Source of the DNA: a virus | Virus record (IMG/VR): IMGVR_UViG_3300008114_000181 | Span: 1-29,033 of that record | Strand: one strand, 5' to 3' | Length of the DNA stretch: 29,033 nucleotides | Shown: positions 6,512-16,930 of the stretch, piece after piece | Position numbering within the stretch: position 1 is the first letter of the stretch | Layout of the letters: every line of letters starts with the position of its first letter | Notes under the pieces: generated by a model | The model's database searches: none | Told to the model about the DNA's origin: nothing | The model's input: the letters and a program-made list of their open reading frames with translations, nothing else | Program-made: the position numbers and the translations under genes

Positions 6512-6756
6512 ATAATACCTACATAAAGATGGGCCTATACAAGCCATGTATCTTCATCAATCCTGATGATGATAACGATGAGGAGCTACTGAGTGCAACG
6601 GTCTATATTGATGAGGAAAAAGTGCAAATCTTGAATGAGAATGGTGAGTTCATTGCTCAATTTTTTTATGAGGAACTGAGAGGTATCATGGCTGTCATGG
6701 CAGCACATCAAGAAAAGCAGTCAATCAGAATATCAGCAATAGCTAAAAAGAATTAG
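6508..6756 (+). CDS. Small acidic protein of unknown function
   Basis: An 82-aa protein starting at ATG 6508, which overlaps the previous stop as ATGA. That coupling decides against an in-frame upstream start at 6448. The sequence has a NPDDDNDEELLSATVYIDEE acidic segment and a C-terminal helix (MAVMAAHQEKQ). There is no membrane segment or known motif. It is the last plus-strand gene of its block, and its stop overlaps the terminase large-subunit stop on the other strand by 4 bases. I do not recognise the family. Confidence 0.6.
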   Translation: MNNTYIKMGLYKPCIFINPDDDNDEELLSATVYIDEEKVQILNENGEFIAQFFYEELRGIMAVMAAHQEKQSIRISAIAKKN

Positions 6757-8060
6757 ACAGCTACTCCTCCAACAAAGTACCTACCGTCTCTCTTATTGAC
6801 TTCAAAGTAGGCACGCATCATGATACTATCTGCAATGTCAGGGGAGAGTCCTCCAGCTTTGGCTGCAATAGTTTCCTTATCAGTTACCATCAGCTTACCA
6901 TCACTGCCTACATTGGCTCTCCTTACTAGCTCTAGCTCCTTTGTGATTTGATCTTTATACTTGCTGTTGAATGTGATCTCATTCTTGTCTATCATATCAC
7001 CTAGCTTGAAGTAGCAGTCAGCTTTTAAATTCTTGTAGTTAGGTCTGAAAGCTTTTGATCCATTGACAAATCCTGGGCAACGGAGATAATCTACCGCACC
7101 TCCCCCGATACCATCCTCGTCACAGATAACATTGGAGAGCTTTACCTGATACTCCTCCATCAGTCTCTTGATGATGTCCACTATCTCATTGACTCTCTTG
7201 TGAAGATGTAGATCCATCCTCTCCAGGTGCAATCCGTTCCATACACAAATGACAGTCCTATCCTTACCCAAACGCGCAATATCAGCTGTGATGTAGCAAT
7301 CAGTGAGACTGTCTGACTTATCTCTGAAACATCTGAGCAGCTCAGAATAAGAGTACAGTCTATCATCACTGCTATCAAAGTCCCAGTCTCCCAATAATAG
7401 TCTTTTCCTATCCACTTCCGGCAATGTGTTAAGGATGCCCATGTATGATGAGGGTAGCATGTAATTATCTGCACTGAGAGACTGGATGAAAGCTTTATCA
7501 GGACTCAATCTGCCCTCGCGATGGGGATGGTAGAACTCATTGTATAGGTATCCCTTAGAGGGGTTGCATGTCATGAGCAGCTTAGGTACCAGGTTGTACT
7601 CATTGAGCTTATATCTTATCCTACTTAGCACAGTAGTGATAGCTCTCTCATGTACCTCTGCTGCCTCATCTATGAATGCATCAGTCAGCTCCAGTCCTCC
7701 CAAGTCTTGATAGTGGGGATCTGAGGGCTTGTAAGCTAAGTCTGCAAGCACTATCTGACTATCATTGTAGAATGTGATAGTATTGCTCTGTTGGTTGTAA
7801 TTGTAGTGAGTGTGGGGCTGTAGTCCCATCAGTCTAGTAGTCTCAAAGAATGACGCTATGGTAGTCTTTTTTAGGGTATCTAGCTTAGACCTCCCAATGA
7901 GAGACTTAGTGCCTGCATACTTGAGTCTCCTCTGTATCTGCCAAATACAGCCCAGTCTTGTCTTGCCTCCTCCTGCTGCACCTCCATACAAGATCATGTT
8001 GGCAGGATGGTTATTGCGTAGATAGACCAGTGCTTCTTTCTGCTTGTCTAGTAGTTCCAT
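6753..8060 (-). CDS. terL: Terminase large subunit
   Basis: A 435-aa DNA-packaging motor. The ATPase half has Walker A (GGAAGGGKT, residues 26-34), Walker B (AFIDEAAE, Asp131-Glu132) and the coupling motif MTCNPSKG (about 163-170). The nuclease half has Asp260 (ITADIARLGKDR), Asp314/Asp316 (VICDEDGIGGG) and Asp408/Asp411 (SPDIADSIMM), the RNase-H-like acidic residues. I chose ATG 8060 over 8096 because the upstream small gene ends there as TGATG. The gene closes the long minus-strand operon and faces the plus-strand block tail to tail. The small subunit is encoded elsewhere on the opposite strand (16502-16930), which is unusual. Confidence 0.93.
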   Translation of the reverse strand: MELLDKQKEALVYLRNNHPANMILYGGAAGGGKTRLGCIWQIQRRLKYAGTKSLIGRSKLDTLKKTTIASFFETTRLMGLQPHTHYNYNQQSNTITFYNDSQIVLADLAYKPSDPHYQDLGGLELTDAFIDEAAEVHERAITTVLSRIRYKLNEYNLVPKLLMTCNPSKGYLYNEFYHPHREGRLSPDKAFIQSLSADNYMLPSSYMGILNTLPEVDRKRLLLGDWDFDSSDDRLYSYSELLRCFRDKSDSLTDCYITADIARLGKDRTVICVWNGLHLERMDLHLHKRVNEIVDIIKRLMEEYQVKLSNVICDEDGIGGGAVDYLRCPGFVNGSKAFRPNYKNLKADCYFKLGDMIDKNEITFNSKYKDQITKELELVRRANVGSDGKLMVTDKETIAAKAGGLSPDIADSIMMRAYFEVNKRDGRYFVGGVAV

Positions 8061-8209
8061 CACTTTTCTTTGCTCATGATGAGCTGAGCTTTGCACACTG
8101 CATACCTCTGCTGGTAGTCAGTGAACTCGGAGTTCATGACTTCATCATTCATGCATCTGCCAATGAATTGCTCATCAGACTCATTTTGTTTTTTTTTAGG
8201 TAGTGGCAT
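8060..8209 (-). CDS. Small 49-aa protein coupled to terminase large subunit
   Basis: A 49-aa protein (MPLPKKKQNESDEQFIGRCM...), too short for common length cutoffs. The motif Pro-x-Pro-Lys... Glu-Ser-x-x-x-Phe-(x)-x-Arg-Cys-Met... Phe...Gln-Arg-x-Ala-Val-Cys recurs in small phage proteins and at the N-termini of some head proteins. The stop TGA overlaps the terminase start (TGATG), pointing to translational coupling. An A-rich stretch encodes KKK near the N-terminus. A DNA-packaging or head-assembly role is a guess from this position. Confidence 0.75.
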   Translation of the reverse strand: MPLPKKKQNESDEQFIGRCMNDEVMNSEFTDYQQRYAVCKAQLIMSKEK

Positions 8210-9129: not shown

Positions 9130-9373
9130 TTGATAAAGATATATTATTTTTTTCAACTAGCTGATACTCACCTCTATTATCTAGTGGAATAAAGCCTGAG
9201 CCATTGCCATGTACTACCTTCATGAAGTCTACCTCTACCTTTGCAGAGTTCACTATCACTTGTGCTACATCTGAGATAGTCTGTGCTTTCTCAATGTCTA
9301 TGTCTCCATCCTTTAGCATTTCGATTACTTCAAATAGATGGTTTCTTAAATCCTCAATCTTGTTTCGTGCCAT
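9104..9373 (-). CDS. Conserved small phage protein, unknown function
   Basis: An 89-aa protein, MARNKIEDLRNHLFEVIEML..., followed by AQTISDVAQVIVNSAKVEVD and a Gly-rich GNGSGF stretch. This arrangement recurs in small phage and prophage proteins that I have seen annotated only as hypothetical. It overlaps the HNH gene by 20 bases upstream and the next gene by 26 bases downstream. The predicted helical hairpin suggests a small oligomer. No catalytic motif is visible. Confidence 0.7.
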   Translation of the reverse strand: MARNKIEDLRNHLFEVIEMLKDGDIDIEKAQTISDVAQVIVNSAKVEVDFMKVVHGNGSGFIPLDNRGEYQLVEKNNISLSNENTSANL

Positions 9374-9968
9374 GATTTCTTATTGTTTTTTTTAGTTTTG
9401 ATATTGTCTTAATTGCTTGTACTATTTCTGTTGGATAACGGTGGATAGTGTTTCTTGCCATAGCTTCCTCATAGGTCAGCAGCAGCAGATTATCTATTGA
9501 TATATTCAACTTGTTGTTATCCTTAAAAACTAGTTTATGTCGGGGTGGTATTGGTCCATTGACTTCCTCCCATACTATGTGATGTACTGCTTTCCATTTC
9601 TTGGGATCCGCTACCTTCCTCTCCAGGTATCCATCCACAGTGATTCTCTCACTGCCTACTGGTTTATAGTTATGAGGCTTGTGTCCTTTCTTGAACTCAG
9701 TAGCGACACTCACCCTCATGTACTTACCTTTATTCCATGTGATATCTCCTTTCTTATACCGGTGAGCTTTGCCATACTTAAAAAGATTCTCATTAGTCCT
9801 AGCTAGCATCTGCTTCATGTACTCAGGATCCTTTTTTATTTTTCTACTGCACGCTATACCATGTACCTTACTCTCTGTCAATCCATACTTGAGTGCTACT
9901 TCTCTTGTACTCATGTGTGGGTAGTCGGCTAGTATTTGATTGAGGAAGTCTTGACTATACTTTTTCAT
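9354..9968 (-). CDS. HNH endonuclease with N-terminal helix-turn-helix
   Basis: A 204-aa protein. Residues about 10-40 look like a helix-turn-helix (STREVALKYGLTESKVHGIA). A linker with WNKGKY and FKKGHKPHNYKP motifs follows, then an HNH core with His-His (KWKAVHHIVWEE, about 124-135), LVFKDNNKLN and ISIDNLLLLT. This resembles free-standing phage HNH homing-type nucleases that cut double-stranded DNA with a metal ion. It overlaps the preceding gene by ATGA and the next by 20 bases, so it is integrated into the operon, not a recent insertion between genes. It could act as a homing enzyme or in DNA processing. Confidence 0.85.
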   Translation of the reverse strand: MKKYSQDFLNQILADYPHMSTREVALKYGLTESKVHGIACSRKIKKDPEYMKQMLARTNENLFKYGKAHRYKKGDITWNKGKYMRVSVATEFKKGHKPHNYKPVGSERITVDGYLERKVADPKKWKAVHHIVWEEVNGPIPPRHKLVFKDNNKLNISIDNLLLLTYEEAMARNTIHRYPTEIVQAIKTISKLKKTIRNHGTKQD

Positions 9969-14099: not shown

Positions 14100-14447
14100 A
14101 TGCTAGAGTCAGATATTCAAGAGGCAGTAGTCAAGTTCATTGATATTAACTATCCAGGCACCTTGTATTGTGCATCAGCTGGAGGGATGAGGACTAGCAT
14201 GAGACAAGCTATCAAGATGAAACGCACTGGCTATAAGAAAGGATTCCCTGACTTACAGATCATGCATCCCACAAAGCTACATCATGGCTTATTCATTGAG
14301 ATTAAGACAAGTAAGGGTCAAGCATCACCAGAGCAGAAAGCTTGGAGGGATGAGTTGAATAAGAGAGGATACAGAGCTGTGATATGCAAGGGCCTTGATG
14401 CTTGTATTCTCGAGATCATTACCTACATGAATGAGAGACTTGAATAA
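14100..14447 (+). CDS. VRR-NUC family nuclease
   Basis: A 115-aa single-domain protein with the PD-(D/E)xK layout of VRR-NUC enzymes: Glu3 in the first helix, a basic loop (RTSMRQAIKMKRTGYKKG), Asp51 in GFPDLQI, Glu67-x-Lys69 in FIEIKTSKG, and a Gln-containing helix (SPEQKAW). VRR-NUC proteins act on branched or duplex DNA, and phage versions are taken to be Holliday-junction or repair nucleases. It could resolve recombination or packaging intermediates. It is the first gene of the rightward block and overlaps the sigma-like gene by 17 bases. The start at 14100 fits a leaderless transcript. Confidence 0.9.
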   Translation: MLESDIQEAVVKFIDINYPGTLYCASAGGMRTSMRQAIKMKRTGYKKGFPDLQIMHPTKLHHGLFIEIKTSKGQASPEQKAWRDELNKRGYRAVICKGLDACILEIITYMNERLE

Positions 14448-14964
14448 TGCCATAGAACTGCACTACAAAGATTTCTTAGCACTGGCTAAGATTCTGTCTA
14501 GAGGCAAGAGCTTTGATCCCTATGACCTCCTCCATGATACCATTGCTAGACTCTATGAGAGAGAAGCTGATTTCATTGACGATATTATCAAGAGAGGCAA
14601 GTTCAAGGCATACATGGACTGCTCATTGAGGTTAGCAGCTAATAGCTCTACCAGTAGATTCTACTACACTCATCGCAAGTTCACCAATGACATGAGTGAG
14701 ATCACTGAGGATGCCTTACAGACAAAAGTTCCGGATATTGCAAGTTTTGTCAATAGGGAGAACATTGACATCATCATCAGTAGGCTCCCTGAATTTGAGA
14801 GCAAAGCACTGGAGCTGTATCTCATGGGCTTCAAGTACAAGGAGATCAGTGATGCCACAGATATACCTCTCACCTATGTGTTTAGGGCAGTCAATACAGC
14901 TAAGCAATTACTAATAGATCATATATGTTATTTACAACAGCACAGCAAAGAAAAGAAAGACTAG
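14431..14964 (+). CDS. RNA polymerase sigma-factor-like protein
   Basis: A 177-aa protein. Residues about 8-75 resemble sigma region 2 (HYKDFLALAKILSRGKSFDP, then YDLLHDTIARLYER). Residues about 115-170 resemble region 4 with a helix-turn-helix (FESKALELYLMGFKYKEISD, IPLTYVFRAVNTAK). This is the two-domain layout of ECF-type sigma factors; small sigma-like proteins are common in Bacteroidota phages. It would redirect host RNA polymerase to phage promoters, probably late ones. The Cys-rich protein downstream overlaps it by 40 bases and could be a partner. No promoter specificity can be read directly. Confidence 0.7.
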   Translation: MRDLNNAIELHYKDFLALAKILSRGKSFDPYDLLHDTIARLYEREADFIDDIIKRGKFKAYMDCSLRLAANSSTSRFYYTHRKFTNDMSEITEDALQTKVPDIASFVNRENIDIIISRLPEFESKALELYLMGFKYKEISDATDIPLTYVFRAVNTAKQLLIDHICYLQQHSKEKKD

Positions 14965-15425
14965 ACATCTGCATGGCATGTCCTGTCTATGTAGCGAAAA
15001 GCACCTCATGTGGTAAGTTCATGGACCTCTTTCAAGACCTGGTCACTATTGATGGTGTGACCTTCAAGCCATGTGGATGCCATCTTAGAGCAAAGGCATC
15101 ACTCAAACACTTTGATTGTCCAGCAGGGAAGTGGCCTACTATATTCAGCAAGAAACAACTGTCTATATTGAAAGACATAGCAGAGAGAGCTACTAAGCAG
15201 AAGTTCATAGTTAAGGAGGACAGAGATATGCTCAATCAAATCTTTCAGACTGAGGACCCCAACTTCCGAGGATTCTCCTGCAGTTCATGTGGAAGTCAGA
15301 TATTCAGTACACTAGATCAGCTTTTGCAAGATATGCATAATGGTACTGTAGTAGTCGATAACCCCCCAAGTAACCCCTCAGATATTCCTGCAAGGATCAA
15401 GAGGAGTAGAAAAAAGAAGGAGTGA
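14925..15425 (+). CDS. Cysteine-rich zinc-binding protein
   Basis: A 166-aa protein with two Cys clusters. The first is CMACPVY...SCGKFM, then KPCGCHLRAK and FDCPAG (about residues 16-67). The second is SCSSCG (about 118-123). Together they can bind zinc. The tail is basic (RIKRSRKKKE). The N-terminal pattern is frequent in Bacteroidota phage proteins of unknown role. It overlaps the sigma-like gene by 40 bases and ends the operon about 58 bases before a terminator. It may bind nucleic acid or modulate the sigma factor; both are inference. Confidence 0.7.
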   Translation: MLFTTAQQRKERLDICMACPVYVAKSTSCGKFMDLFQDLVTIDGVTFKPCGCHLRAKASLKHFDCPAGKWPTIFSKKQLSILKDIAERATKQKFIVKEDRDMLNQIFQTEDPNFRGFSCSSCGSQIFSTLDQLLQDMHNGTVVVDNPPSNPSDIPARIKRSRKKKE

Positions 15426-15482
15426 GATATACTAAGAGCAGCTATCTATCCTTTATAGTTTAAGTTTTTGATTTCTCAAGAG

Positions 15483-15505
15483 AGCTCACAACGGTGGGCT
15501 TTTTT
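15483..15505 (+). terminator. Rho-independent terminator ending the nuclease-sigma operon
   Basis: AGCTCAC (15483-15489) pairs with GTGGGCT (15494-15500), with one G-T pair, around an AACG tetraloop. A run of six T follows. It lies 58 bases after the stop at 15425 and separates the operon from the non-coding stretch that follows. Confidence 0.75.
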
Positions 15506-15550
15506 GTTTTATGACTTTTCAACAATATGACAGCTGTAACAAATTGATTC

Positions 15551-15558
15551 TATATTTG
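15551..15558 (+). promoter_or_regulatory. Promoter -7 element in the gene-free stretch (TATATTTG)
   Basis: TATATTTG matches the Bacteroidota -7 consensus. I see no good -33 TTTG at the expected distance. It lies just after the terminator and before the structured stretch, so transcription would start near 15564 and give a leader of about 425 bases, or a separate RNA, ahead of the gene at 15990. Confidence 0.4.
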
Positions 15559-15607
15559 TCACATGCATCACACACATAGGTTTTTAATTTTGGTTGAAAG
15601 TTTTGAA

Positions 15608-15906
15608 GTCCCCTTGAGTCTGGTGCATGGCTCTTGGGGACATTCTTTTGTTGGCGGTGCGAATACGCTAGGGCAGAGGAATTAGGCACTACTAGGGGAT
15701 GATAGCACAGTGCAGCGGTGGCATCAAGGAGAGAGCCGCAAGACTATCACAGAGGTCAGACACTCTGTTAAAGTAGACTCCAGACCATAGATCACTGATG
15801 ATACTATGGGACTTGAAAGCGAGGGACTCATTCGACAGATTGAGACTTAATGCTTGAGAGGTGAGTGACAACTGATGTCAAGTCAGTAGGATATTCTCAT
15901 GCTCTC
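15608..15906 (+). ncRNA. Candidate structured RNA in the 564-bp gene-free stretch
   Basis: No convincing gene exists between 15426 and 15989. The stretch can form several helices: GTCCCC/GGGGAC (15608-15613 with 15636-15641), GCACT/AGTGC (15686/15709), ACAGAG/CTCTGT (15749-15768), CCATAG/CTATGG (15785-15809), and a 10-bp stem with one bulge, GAGAGGTGAG (15856-15865) with CTCATGCTCTC (15896-15906), enclosing an ACTGA/TCAGT hairpin (15871-15887). Base composition is also less AT-rich than the leader after it. It could be a phage RNA or a long 5' regulatory leader. It matches no tRNA, hammerhead or intron core I can recognise. The short helices could arise by chance. Confidence 0.4.
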
Positions 15907-15925
15907 TTAGCTCAGGATCTATTCT

Positions 15926-15956
15926 CTAGATTAAGTATTAACTACTACTTATCTAG
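15926..15956 (+). repeat. Inverted repeat (11-bp stem, one bulge) before the gene at 15990
   Basis: CTAGATTAAGTA (15926-15937) pairs with TACTTATCTAG (15946-15956) with a single bulged T and an 8-base loop. TTAAGT within the left arm can pair instead with ACTTAA at 15963-15968, so two structures compete. It lies 33 bases before the ATG. It may be a protein operator or a leader hairpin controlling the small-terminase and tail operon. Confidence 0.5.
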
Positions 15957-15989
15957 TAATTAACTTAATAGATATACTAATAGATAGAT

Positions 15990-16346
15990 ATGATATTGAT
16001 ACCAGGACAAATTGAGTCAATTAAGTCAAGAAAAGACAAGACAACTGCTATAGTCTTGGGTAGTCAAGAGATGTCACCCTCAACAGCTGGTCAGCTTTTT
16101 GCTTTACAAAACAGCTTCGTCTATGTAGCTATAAAAGAGGAAAGTTTCATGCAGCAAGAGATTGAAGTCATGGAGGACCTAAAAGCTGATTTTGAGCTAG
16201 AAAAGAAAAGCAATGGTCAGAGACTAAGGAATGTACTCTATAAGCTATATGAGCAAGATAAAGAGGGATTTATTACCTTTACAAAGTACTATGATCATCA
16301 GATGGAAAGATTGATAAATCACTTTAAGAATAAATTGAATGACTAA
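15990..16346 (+). CDS. Conserved phage protein of unknown function
   Basis: A 118-aa protein that opens the small-terminase and tail block. An ATATACTAATAGATA leader precedes the ATG. The N-terminal half looks like a beta barrel or strand set (GQIESIKSRKDKTTAIVLGS) containing AGQLFALQNSFVYVAIKEE. The C-terminal half is helical (QRLRNVLYKLYEQDKEGF, YYDHQMERLINHFKNKL). The QRLRNVLYxLxxQxxEGF pattern is common in phages of several phyla, mostly annotated hypothetical. It has no catalytic motif. First position after the long leader suggests regulation. Confidence 0.7.
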   Translation: MILIPGQIESIKSRKDKTTAIVLGSQEMSPSTAGQLFALQNSFVYVAIKEESFMQQEIEVMEDLKADFELEKKSNGQRLRNVLYKLYEQDKEGFITFTKYYDHQMERLINHFKNKLND

Positions 16347-16515
16347 GTGTGGGTGTGATGTACCAAAAAAAGAGATACACCAGTGCAGTAAGTGTGCTGA
16401 GTATTTTTGTGGTAGGCATATCTACTATTATATTGATGAGGCTAACATATCTATAACTAGAAATTCTAAGCCTCACTGTGAACAATGCTATATTGAGAAG
16501 TATGGGAAAAGATAA
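16339..16515 (+). CDS. Small 58-aa zinc-finger-like protein
   Basis: A 58-aa protein missed by usual cutoffs. It has Cys/His pairs arranged as zinc ligands: C-G-C near the N-terminus, C-S-K-C, then FCGRH, then HCEQC. The spacing suggests one or two zinc sites of treble-clef or AN1/B-box-like type. It overlaps the gene before by 8 bases and the small terminase start by 14 bases. A small nucleic-acid- or protein-binding adaptor is plausible. Confidence 0.75.
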   Translation: MTKCGCDVPKKEIHQCSKCAEYFCGRHIYYYIDEANISITRNSKPHCEQCYIEKYGKR

Positions 16516-16930
16516 ATTTGAAAAGTCACTAGAGACAAGGCTTGACAAAACTAACAACAAAAAAGAGTTAATGATCCAATGTCTCAAGCAGTCAATGGGT
16601 ATAGTCTCTCAAGCTTGTGAGAAAGCTGATTTGAGTAGGACTACTCACTATGAATGGTACAAAGAGGACCCCGACTACGCTGCTCAAGTAGATGCTATCC
16701 AAGAGTCATGTATTGACTTTGCTGAGAGCAAGCTCATGGAACTCATCAATGGAGCCAAGCATGAGGTAGCAACAGCTAAGGGTGAAGTACTGACAGTCCA
16801 GGATGGACCTAACCCAACAGCTTGTATATTCTATCTCAAGACTAAAGGAAAGAAAAGAGGATATGTAGAGAAGTCTGAGCTGGAGGTAGGTGGCAATGGT
16901 ATCAATATCACAATAGACAGTCTTATATGA
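16502..16930 (+). CDS. terS: Terminase small subunit
   Basis: A 142-aa protein from ATG 16502; an in-frame start at 16478 lies further inside the previous gene. A helix-turn-helix-like region at about residues 30-55 (SMGIVSQACEKADLSRTTHY, then EWYKEDPDYAAQV) is followed by a helix (CIDFAESKLMELI) and the C-terminal FYLKTKGKKRGYVEKSEL block. This order is typical of small terminases that recognise the packaging site and stimulate the large subunit. Its stop overlaps the next start by ATGA. The large subunit is on the other strand about 8.4 kb away. Confidence 0.8.
   Translation: MGKDKFEKSLETRLDKTNNKKELMIQCLKQSMGIVSQACEKADLSRTTHYEWYKEDPDYAAQVDAIQESCIDFAESKLMELINGAKHEVATAKGEVLTVQDGPNPTACIFYLKTKGKKRGYVEKSELEVGGNGINITIDSLI

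Follow-up and report, generated by a model that had tools for sequence, protein, structure and literature searches.

A virus record of 29,033 bases, referred to here as the window, contains a gap of 564 bp (15426-15989) between two genes, and the question raised by this locus is what such a stretch provides to the phage that carries it. The gap was initially described as gene-free and it indeed holds no plausible gene: the upstream gene on the plus strand stops at 15425, the next begins at 15990, and the only ORFs in between are located on the minus strand, encode 56 and 59 amino acids, and were judged to be spurious. A structured RNA of roughly 300-400 nt was among the functions proposed in that preliminary description, and this proposal is now supported by strong covariation and by a held-out copy. 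An RNA that spans the whole gap is not what we find, as the conserved element (RNA A) occupies 15642-15934 and is preceded by a second, short RNA (RNA S) at ~15560-15649. RNA A is a previously unnamed noncoding RNA whose pseudoknotted fold is preserved by matching mutations in ~40 related phages.

The large terminase encoded in the window is nearest to those of Flavobacterium phage 11b (44% identity) and Cellulophaga phage phi10:1, which makes a Bacteroidota host likely. The two terminase subunits, large and small, are encoded on opposite strands ~8 kb apart, an unusual arrangement that is only partly kept in the relatives examined. An HNH endonuclease gene (9354-9968, minus strand) occurs in only some of the relatives, which suggests a mobile gene of the homing type. 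No tRNA or tmRNA was found in a search of the window. The terminator noted earlier for the start of the gap is located at 15477-15506. The coordinates of all features are collected in Table 1.

Table 1. Features in and around the gap, with positions in the window
Feature	Position	Strand	Remarks
Large terminase	6753-8096	minus	Pfam Terminase_3
Sigma-70 region 4-like protein	14431-14964		before the gap
Cysteine-containing protein	14925-15425		before the gap; zinc-finger-like by its sequence only
Intrinsic terminator of upstream operon	15477-15506	+	13-pair stem and T run; conserved in close relatives
TATATTTG	15551-15558	+	matches TAnnTTTG; putative promoter of RNA S
RNA S	15562-15649	+	H-type pseudoknot; terminator 15608-15641, U tail 15642-15649
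RNA A	15642-15934	+	conserved structured noncoding RNA, ~293-296 nt
P1	15642-15651 with 15673-15682	+	compensatory change in 8/10 pairs
P1b	15653-15656 with 15666-15669	+	within the P1 region 15642-15682
P2	15686-15690 with 15709-15713	+	100% paired; G-C to A-U change
P3	15715-15719 with 15735-15739	+	2 pairs with compensatory change
P4	15700-15705 with 15744-15749	+	100% paired; compensatory change in 3/6 pairs
P5	15750-15754 with 15763-15767	+	compensatory change in 4/5 pairs
P6/P6b	15785-15794 with 15799-15809	+	bulged A; compensatory change in 6/10 pairs
P7 (less certain)	15828-15833 with 15838-15843	+	84.9% paired; one mismatch in most copies
P8, bulged stem (outer part less certain)	15855-15909	+	outer part 78% paired on an alignment not fitted to P8
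P8b, inner hairpin	15871-15875 with 15883-15887	+	98.7% paired
P9, weak 3' hairpin	15917-15931	+	92.9% paired; no compensatory change
118-aa protein	15990-16346	+	usual, not constant, gene after RNA A
Terminase small subunit	16478-16930		after the 118-aa gene

Distribution of RNA A

Relatives of the locus were identified by using the 118-aa protein as a query, which yielded 32 viral loci, and comparison by blastn revealed a sharply bounded block (~15640-15935) that retains ~80% identity where the flanking DNA of the relatives no longer aligns. After four pattern scans of IMG/VR, the total reached 42 contigs with RNA A besides the window. Matches outside this group were sought in several ways. 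The region gave no blastn match among 50,697 phage records and 72,556 plasmids, and a scan of 84,980 genomes with a motif pattern returned 14 matches that all appeared on inspection to be due to chance. When 395 genomes, sampled from the phylum to which a Bacteroidota genome belongs, were searched with a covariance model of the 5' domain, nothing was found; this search was run without a positive control. One viral locus (L040) with a weak model match of 17.5 bits was discarded, as the match is inside a coding region and lacks an Rfam match. At the gathering threshold, no Rfam family matched. RNA A is carried by a group of uncultivated phages that probably have Bacteroidota hosts.

Structure of RNA A

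Comparative evidence, rather than folding energy, is decisive for this locus. The whole gap folds better than shuffled sequences on both strands (z-scores of -2.97 for plus and -3.57 for minus), and given that the minus strand scores as well, we did not take folding energy alone as evidence; by themselves, these scores are ambiguous. For the conserved element alone, the values are -1.9 (plus) and 0.09 (minus).

The structural model, which was derived by hand, comprises 72 base pairs and was evaluated on 31 distinct copies, in which 93.6% of the cells are standard pairs. Covariation among relatives had been named beforehand as a check on the locus, and compensatory changes are indeed observed in 28 pairs, compared to 18.0 +/- 1.7 in shuffles (none of 500 reached 28) and to 4-7 when the structure is slid along the alignment, although these statistics are flattered because the model was derived from the same 31 sequences on which it was counted. 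The corresponding covariation score is 0.292, versus 0.140 for shuffles and no more than 0.103 for slid structures. A copy found afterwards (L226) retains 56 of the 56 pairs tested and contributes a new U-A pair type to helix P4. In addition, P1, P3, P5, P6 and P8b are recovered independently by RNAalifold, which does not handle pseudoknots. It is close to certain that RNA A is a real, conserved structured RNA of ~296 nt.

The pseudoknot is formed by P4, which crosses P2 with P3 inside, and both of the crossing helices carry compensatory changes. Farther downstream, the bulged stem that had been pointed out at 15856-15906, together with the hairpin it encloses, is real and corresponds to P8 and P8b. 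Two other proposed pairings were dropped: a long-range helix between 15691-15703 and the 3' end, which was predicted from energy and whose variable positions do not covary, and a pairing of UCC (15779-15781) with GGA, which is broken in L226.

Judged from its base pairs, the transcribed sense of RNA A is the plus strand, because P2 and P3 contain U-G pairs, which on the minus strand would turn into A-C mismatches. The element is not coding, since copies of 15639-15934 range from 296 to 303 nt and fall into all three length classes modulo 3, stops are present in all six frames, and substitutions show no three-base periodicity. We find no promoter or terminator that clearly belongs to RNA A itself.

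A short RNA directly upstream

The promoter-like element reported at 15551 is also present, and a TAnnTTTG-type box is retained in nearly all divergent relatives and in both divergent clades; this sequence is the Bacteroidota -7 consensus. The box belongs, as a putative promoter, to a separate short RNA with its own terminator just before RNA A. The 5' segment of this RNA S (15562-15570) pairs with the loop of the terminator (15621-15629), and by the aligned sequences RNA S is a covarying pseudoknot: among 22 relatives, 98.6% of the cells are paired and 5 pairs exhibit double changes, versus at most 2 for slid structures. The sequences from the window's own clade agree, with fewer members and weaker statistics.

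The U tail of this terminator is also the 5' arm of P1, so that a transcript would either end there or read on and fold RNA A. The RNA S unit (15551-15649 in the window, including the box) precedes RNA A in some phages and an unrelated element, described below, in others.

Genomic setting and alternation with element B

Wherever sufficient flanking sequence is available, RNA A follows the sigma-like and zinc-finger-like genes and precedes the late operon. Twelve unrelated families are represented among the genes that come next in 29 loci, without the consistency expected downstream of a gene-specific leader of the riboswitch type. A leader for the late (packaging/tail) operon, as initially suggested, would agree with the constant position at the operon head, but not as the leader of any single gene. 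For an origin or packaging site, likewise suggested, we find no support: the conservation concerns RNA base pairs, among them G-U pairs specific to one strand, and an unrelated sequence can take the place of the element while the neighbouring genes remain 90-99% identical.

This exchange is evident in close relatives such as L085 and L088 and in a distant clade, which carry at this site a noncoding element unrelated to A. This element, B, consists of ~110 conserved bases that look structured and, after these, a pyrimidine tract of ~60 bases that hardly varies. Element B, which has no Rfam match, was found in 39 contigs (for example, L088:3768-3955, L091:3756-3945 and L012:2655-2845). A divergent form (L015:3625-3812) differs in its first part but shares the pyrimidine tract, and it has a hairpin with compensated changes (GCTTC/GAAGC), which suggests that B, too, is an RNA under structural selection.

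No record tested, many being fragments, contains A and B together, and all 29 loci whose 118-aa gene was used to build a tree carry one or the other, never both. On that tree, ~6 changes between A and B are needed, at least 3 of which are forced by well-supported branches. Most of the flanking proteins of a B-carrying genome (G376) share 90-99% identity with those of the window, and its few more diverged proteins are either similarly diverged in the A-carrying genome G388 or located in the tail region. Because A and B switch without any partner protein switching with them, the partner would reside in the host, or else the action would be on the transcript itself.

A tRNA-like sequence (36.9-38.2 bits with the Rfam tRNA model) lies immediately before A or B in several relatives. 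These sequences have regular acceptor, D and T arms and an irregular, variable middle that lacks a clear anticodon arm, and ARAGORN does not accept them. They are positioned between the S terminator and A or B (L091:3654-3745, L097:3189-3280, L094:3503-3589 and L116:5619-5724).

Candidate functions

Our best explanation, to which we would assign about an even chance, is that RNA A is a stand-alone phage RNA that acts in trans on a host component and is made at the head of the late transcript. Transcription would start at the TAnnTTTG box (15551), some transcripts could stop at the pseudoknotted S terminator (15649), and polymerases that read through would produce A as the first part of the late transcript. 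There it would fold as a unit, with P1 making use of the terminator's U tail, and would act alone on a host component such as translation, a tRNA-directed defence or RNA polymerase, while B may have the same function, or an equivalent one, in other phages. A host partner is suggested by the mutual exclusivity of A and B, by the repeated switches between them, and by the lack of a partner protein that switches with them, and the 12 unrelated following genes argue against control of one gene. The tRNA-like sequences beside A or B in several relatives also favour a stand-alone RNA, as similar neighbours are observed for the RNAs ROOL and GOLLD (PMC12286853). Two features count against this explanation, namely that A lacks a clear promoter or terminator of its own, which would also fit a leader acting in cis, and that its constant place before the late operon is not needed for an RNA that acts in trans.

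Those same features bring us to the main rival, in which A (or B) would be a cis-acting antitermination or leader RNA that folds on the nascent late transcript and either allows the polymerase to ignore later terminators or lends stability to the late mRNA. Such an RNA would be expected to look much as A does in its setting: always present as a single copy in the same orientation, heading the late operon, indifferent to which gene comes next, lacking its own terminator, and represented by exactly one of two forms in 29 of 29 loci. However, A is much larger and more complex than the phage antitermination RNA put, the S terminator is upstream of A and therefore out of its reach, and the tRNA-like neighbours suggest processing into separate RNAs. 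We regard this rival as possible, if doubtful. Also on the doubtful side, and a little more so, is the proposal that A and B are unrelated noncoding RNAs that fulfil one and the same required function at one locus, where they replace each other in the manner of alleles. They would then form an RNA-only host-takeover module of Bacteroidota phages, produced on readthrough of the pseudoknotted S terminator, and might, for example, inhibit different host defence or transcription factors or serve as decoys for them.

The size and pseudoknotted architecture of A, and the presence of the HNH gene in this genome, also bring to mind the guide scaffold of an RNA-guided nuclease or a ribozyme such as a degenerate self-splicing intron. 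There is precedent in RAGATH-18, a motif first listed by a bioinformatic survey and later shown to belong to RNA-guided nucleases (PMC11061315). Yet several records that carry A lack the HNH gene, the place of A is fixed, and no intron or HEARO model of Rfam matches it at E values up to 10. The order of its helices includes no counterpart to the P4-P6 region of group I introns, neither an Rfam match to this class nor a P3-P9 core with a P4-P6 domain was found, and the two 5' strands of the pseudoknot are separated by only ~10 nt. We consider a guide or ribozyme very unlikely. We give still less credence to a DNA site for packaging, replication origin or recombination with incidental inverted repeats: A precedes the gene for the terminase small subunit and alternates with B at the same place, as such a site might, but RNA accounts better than duplex DNA for the compensatory changes spread over many helices as well as a pseudoknot and for the G-U pairs, which would be mismatches on the other strand, and A and B switch while the flanking genes stay nearly identical.

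Few large structured RNAs are known from phages and most of these lack a known function, and to this group RNA A adds a consensus fold and a defined place in the genome. Near-identical phages that carry either A or the unrelated B at the same site constitute a natural experiment, which, along with this fold and place, makes function testable through the question of what feature of the host, or what step in transcription, requires one of these elements and only one.

Comparison with known RNAs

The only notable Rfam match is to RF02932 (Betaproteobacteria-1), whose full model covers the first 90 nt, or the 5' third, of RNA A. The scores, 32.6 bits in the window, 34.8 bits for the best copy and 26.5-34.8 bits in four divergent copies, for which no other family scores higher, are below the gathering score of 49.4; the best chance match of this model in one 3.8-Mb genome is 21.7 bits. 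Although sub-threshold, the alignment includes model positions 1-120 with no broken pairs in the window, and it adopts the same register in the four divergent copies. In this alignment, RNA A and the model would share a long P1 with a structured inner loop, a short linker, a P2 with a G-rich loop, and the sequence GGUGGC. In contrast, the 120-nt model lacks the P2/P4 pseudoknot and P5-P9 of the ~296-nt RNA A, which is found in probable Bacteroidota phages. Searches with RF02932 found no usable relative in 369 genomes of a gammaproteobacterial class sample (including Burkholderiales in GTDB), nor did its consensus find one in phages, plasmids and viral contigs. On the basis of the aligned features, we consider a distant relationship to be probable, rather than membership, and the Rfam model may prove to be a fragment of a larger RNA architecture.

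ROOL and GOLLD are large structured noncoding RNAs of phages and prophages that often occur near tRNAs and whose functions are unknown, and GOLLD is often more than 800 nt in length (PMC12286853). RNA A resembles them as a large structured phage RNA with tRNA-like neighbours, and differs in that it has only ~296 nt and that its neighbours are irregular tRNA-like sequences present in some relatives only. ROOL is likewise much longer than RNA A, and the Rfam models for ROOL and GOLLD did not match RNA A at the gathering score or at E values up to 10.

Other parallels concern position and organization. The put RNA of phage HK022 and the EAR element are structured RNAs at the heads of operons that render the polymerase resistant to terminators, whatever gene follows. 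RNA A similarly heads an operon and is independent of the following gene, whereas its size, fold and phylum are different. In the late switch of phage lambda (pR'-6S RNA-tR'), a promoter, a short RNA and a terminator are located directly before the late operon. RNA S differs from 6S RNA by its conserved pseudoknot between the 5' end and the terminator loop, and no Q-like antiterminator was identified, but its cassette presents the same series of promoter, short RNA, terminator and late operon (with the terminase small subunit), a layout that appears to resemble the lambda late switch.
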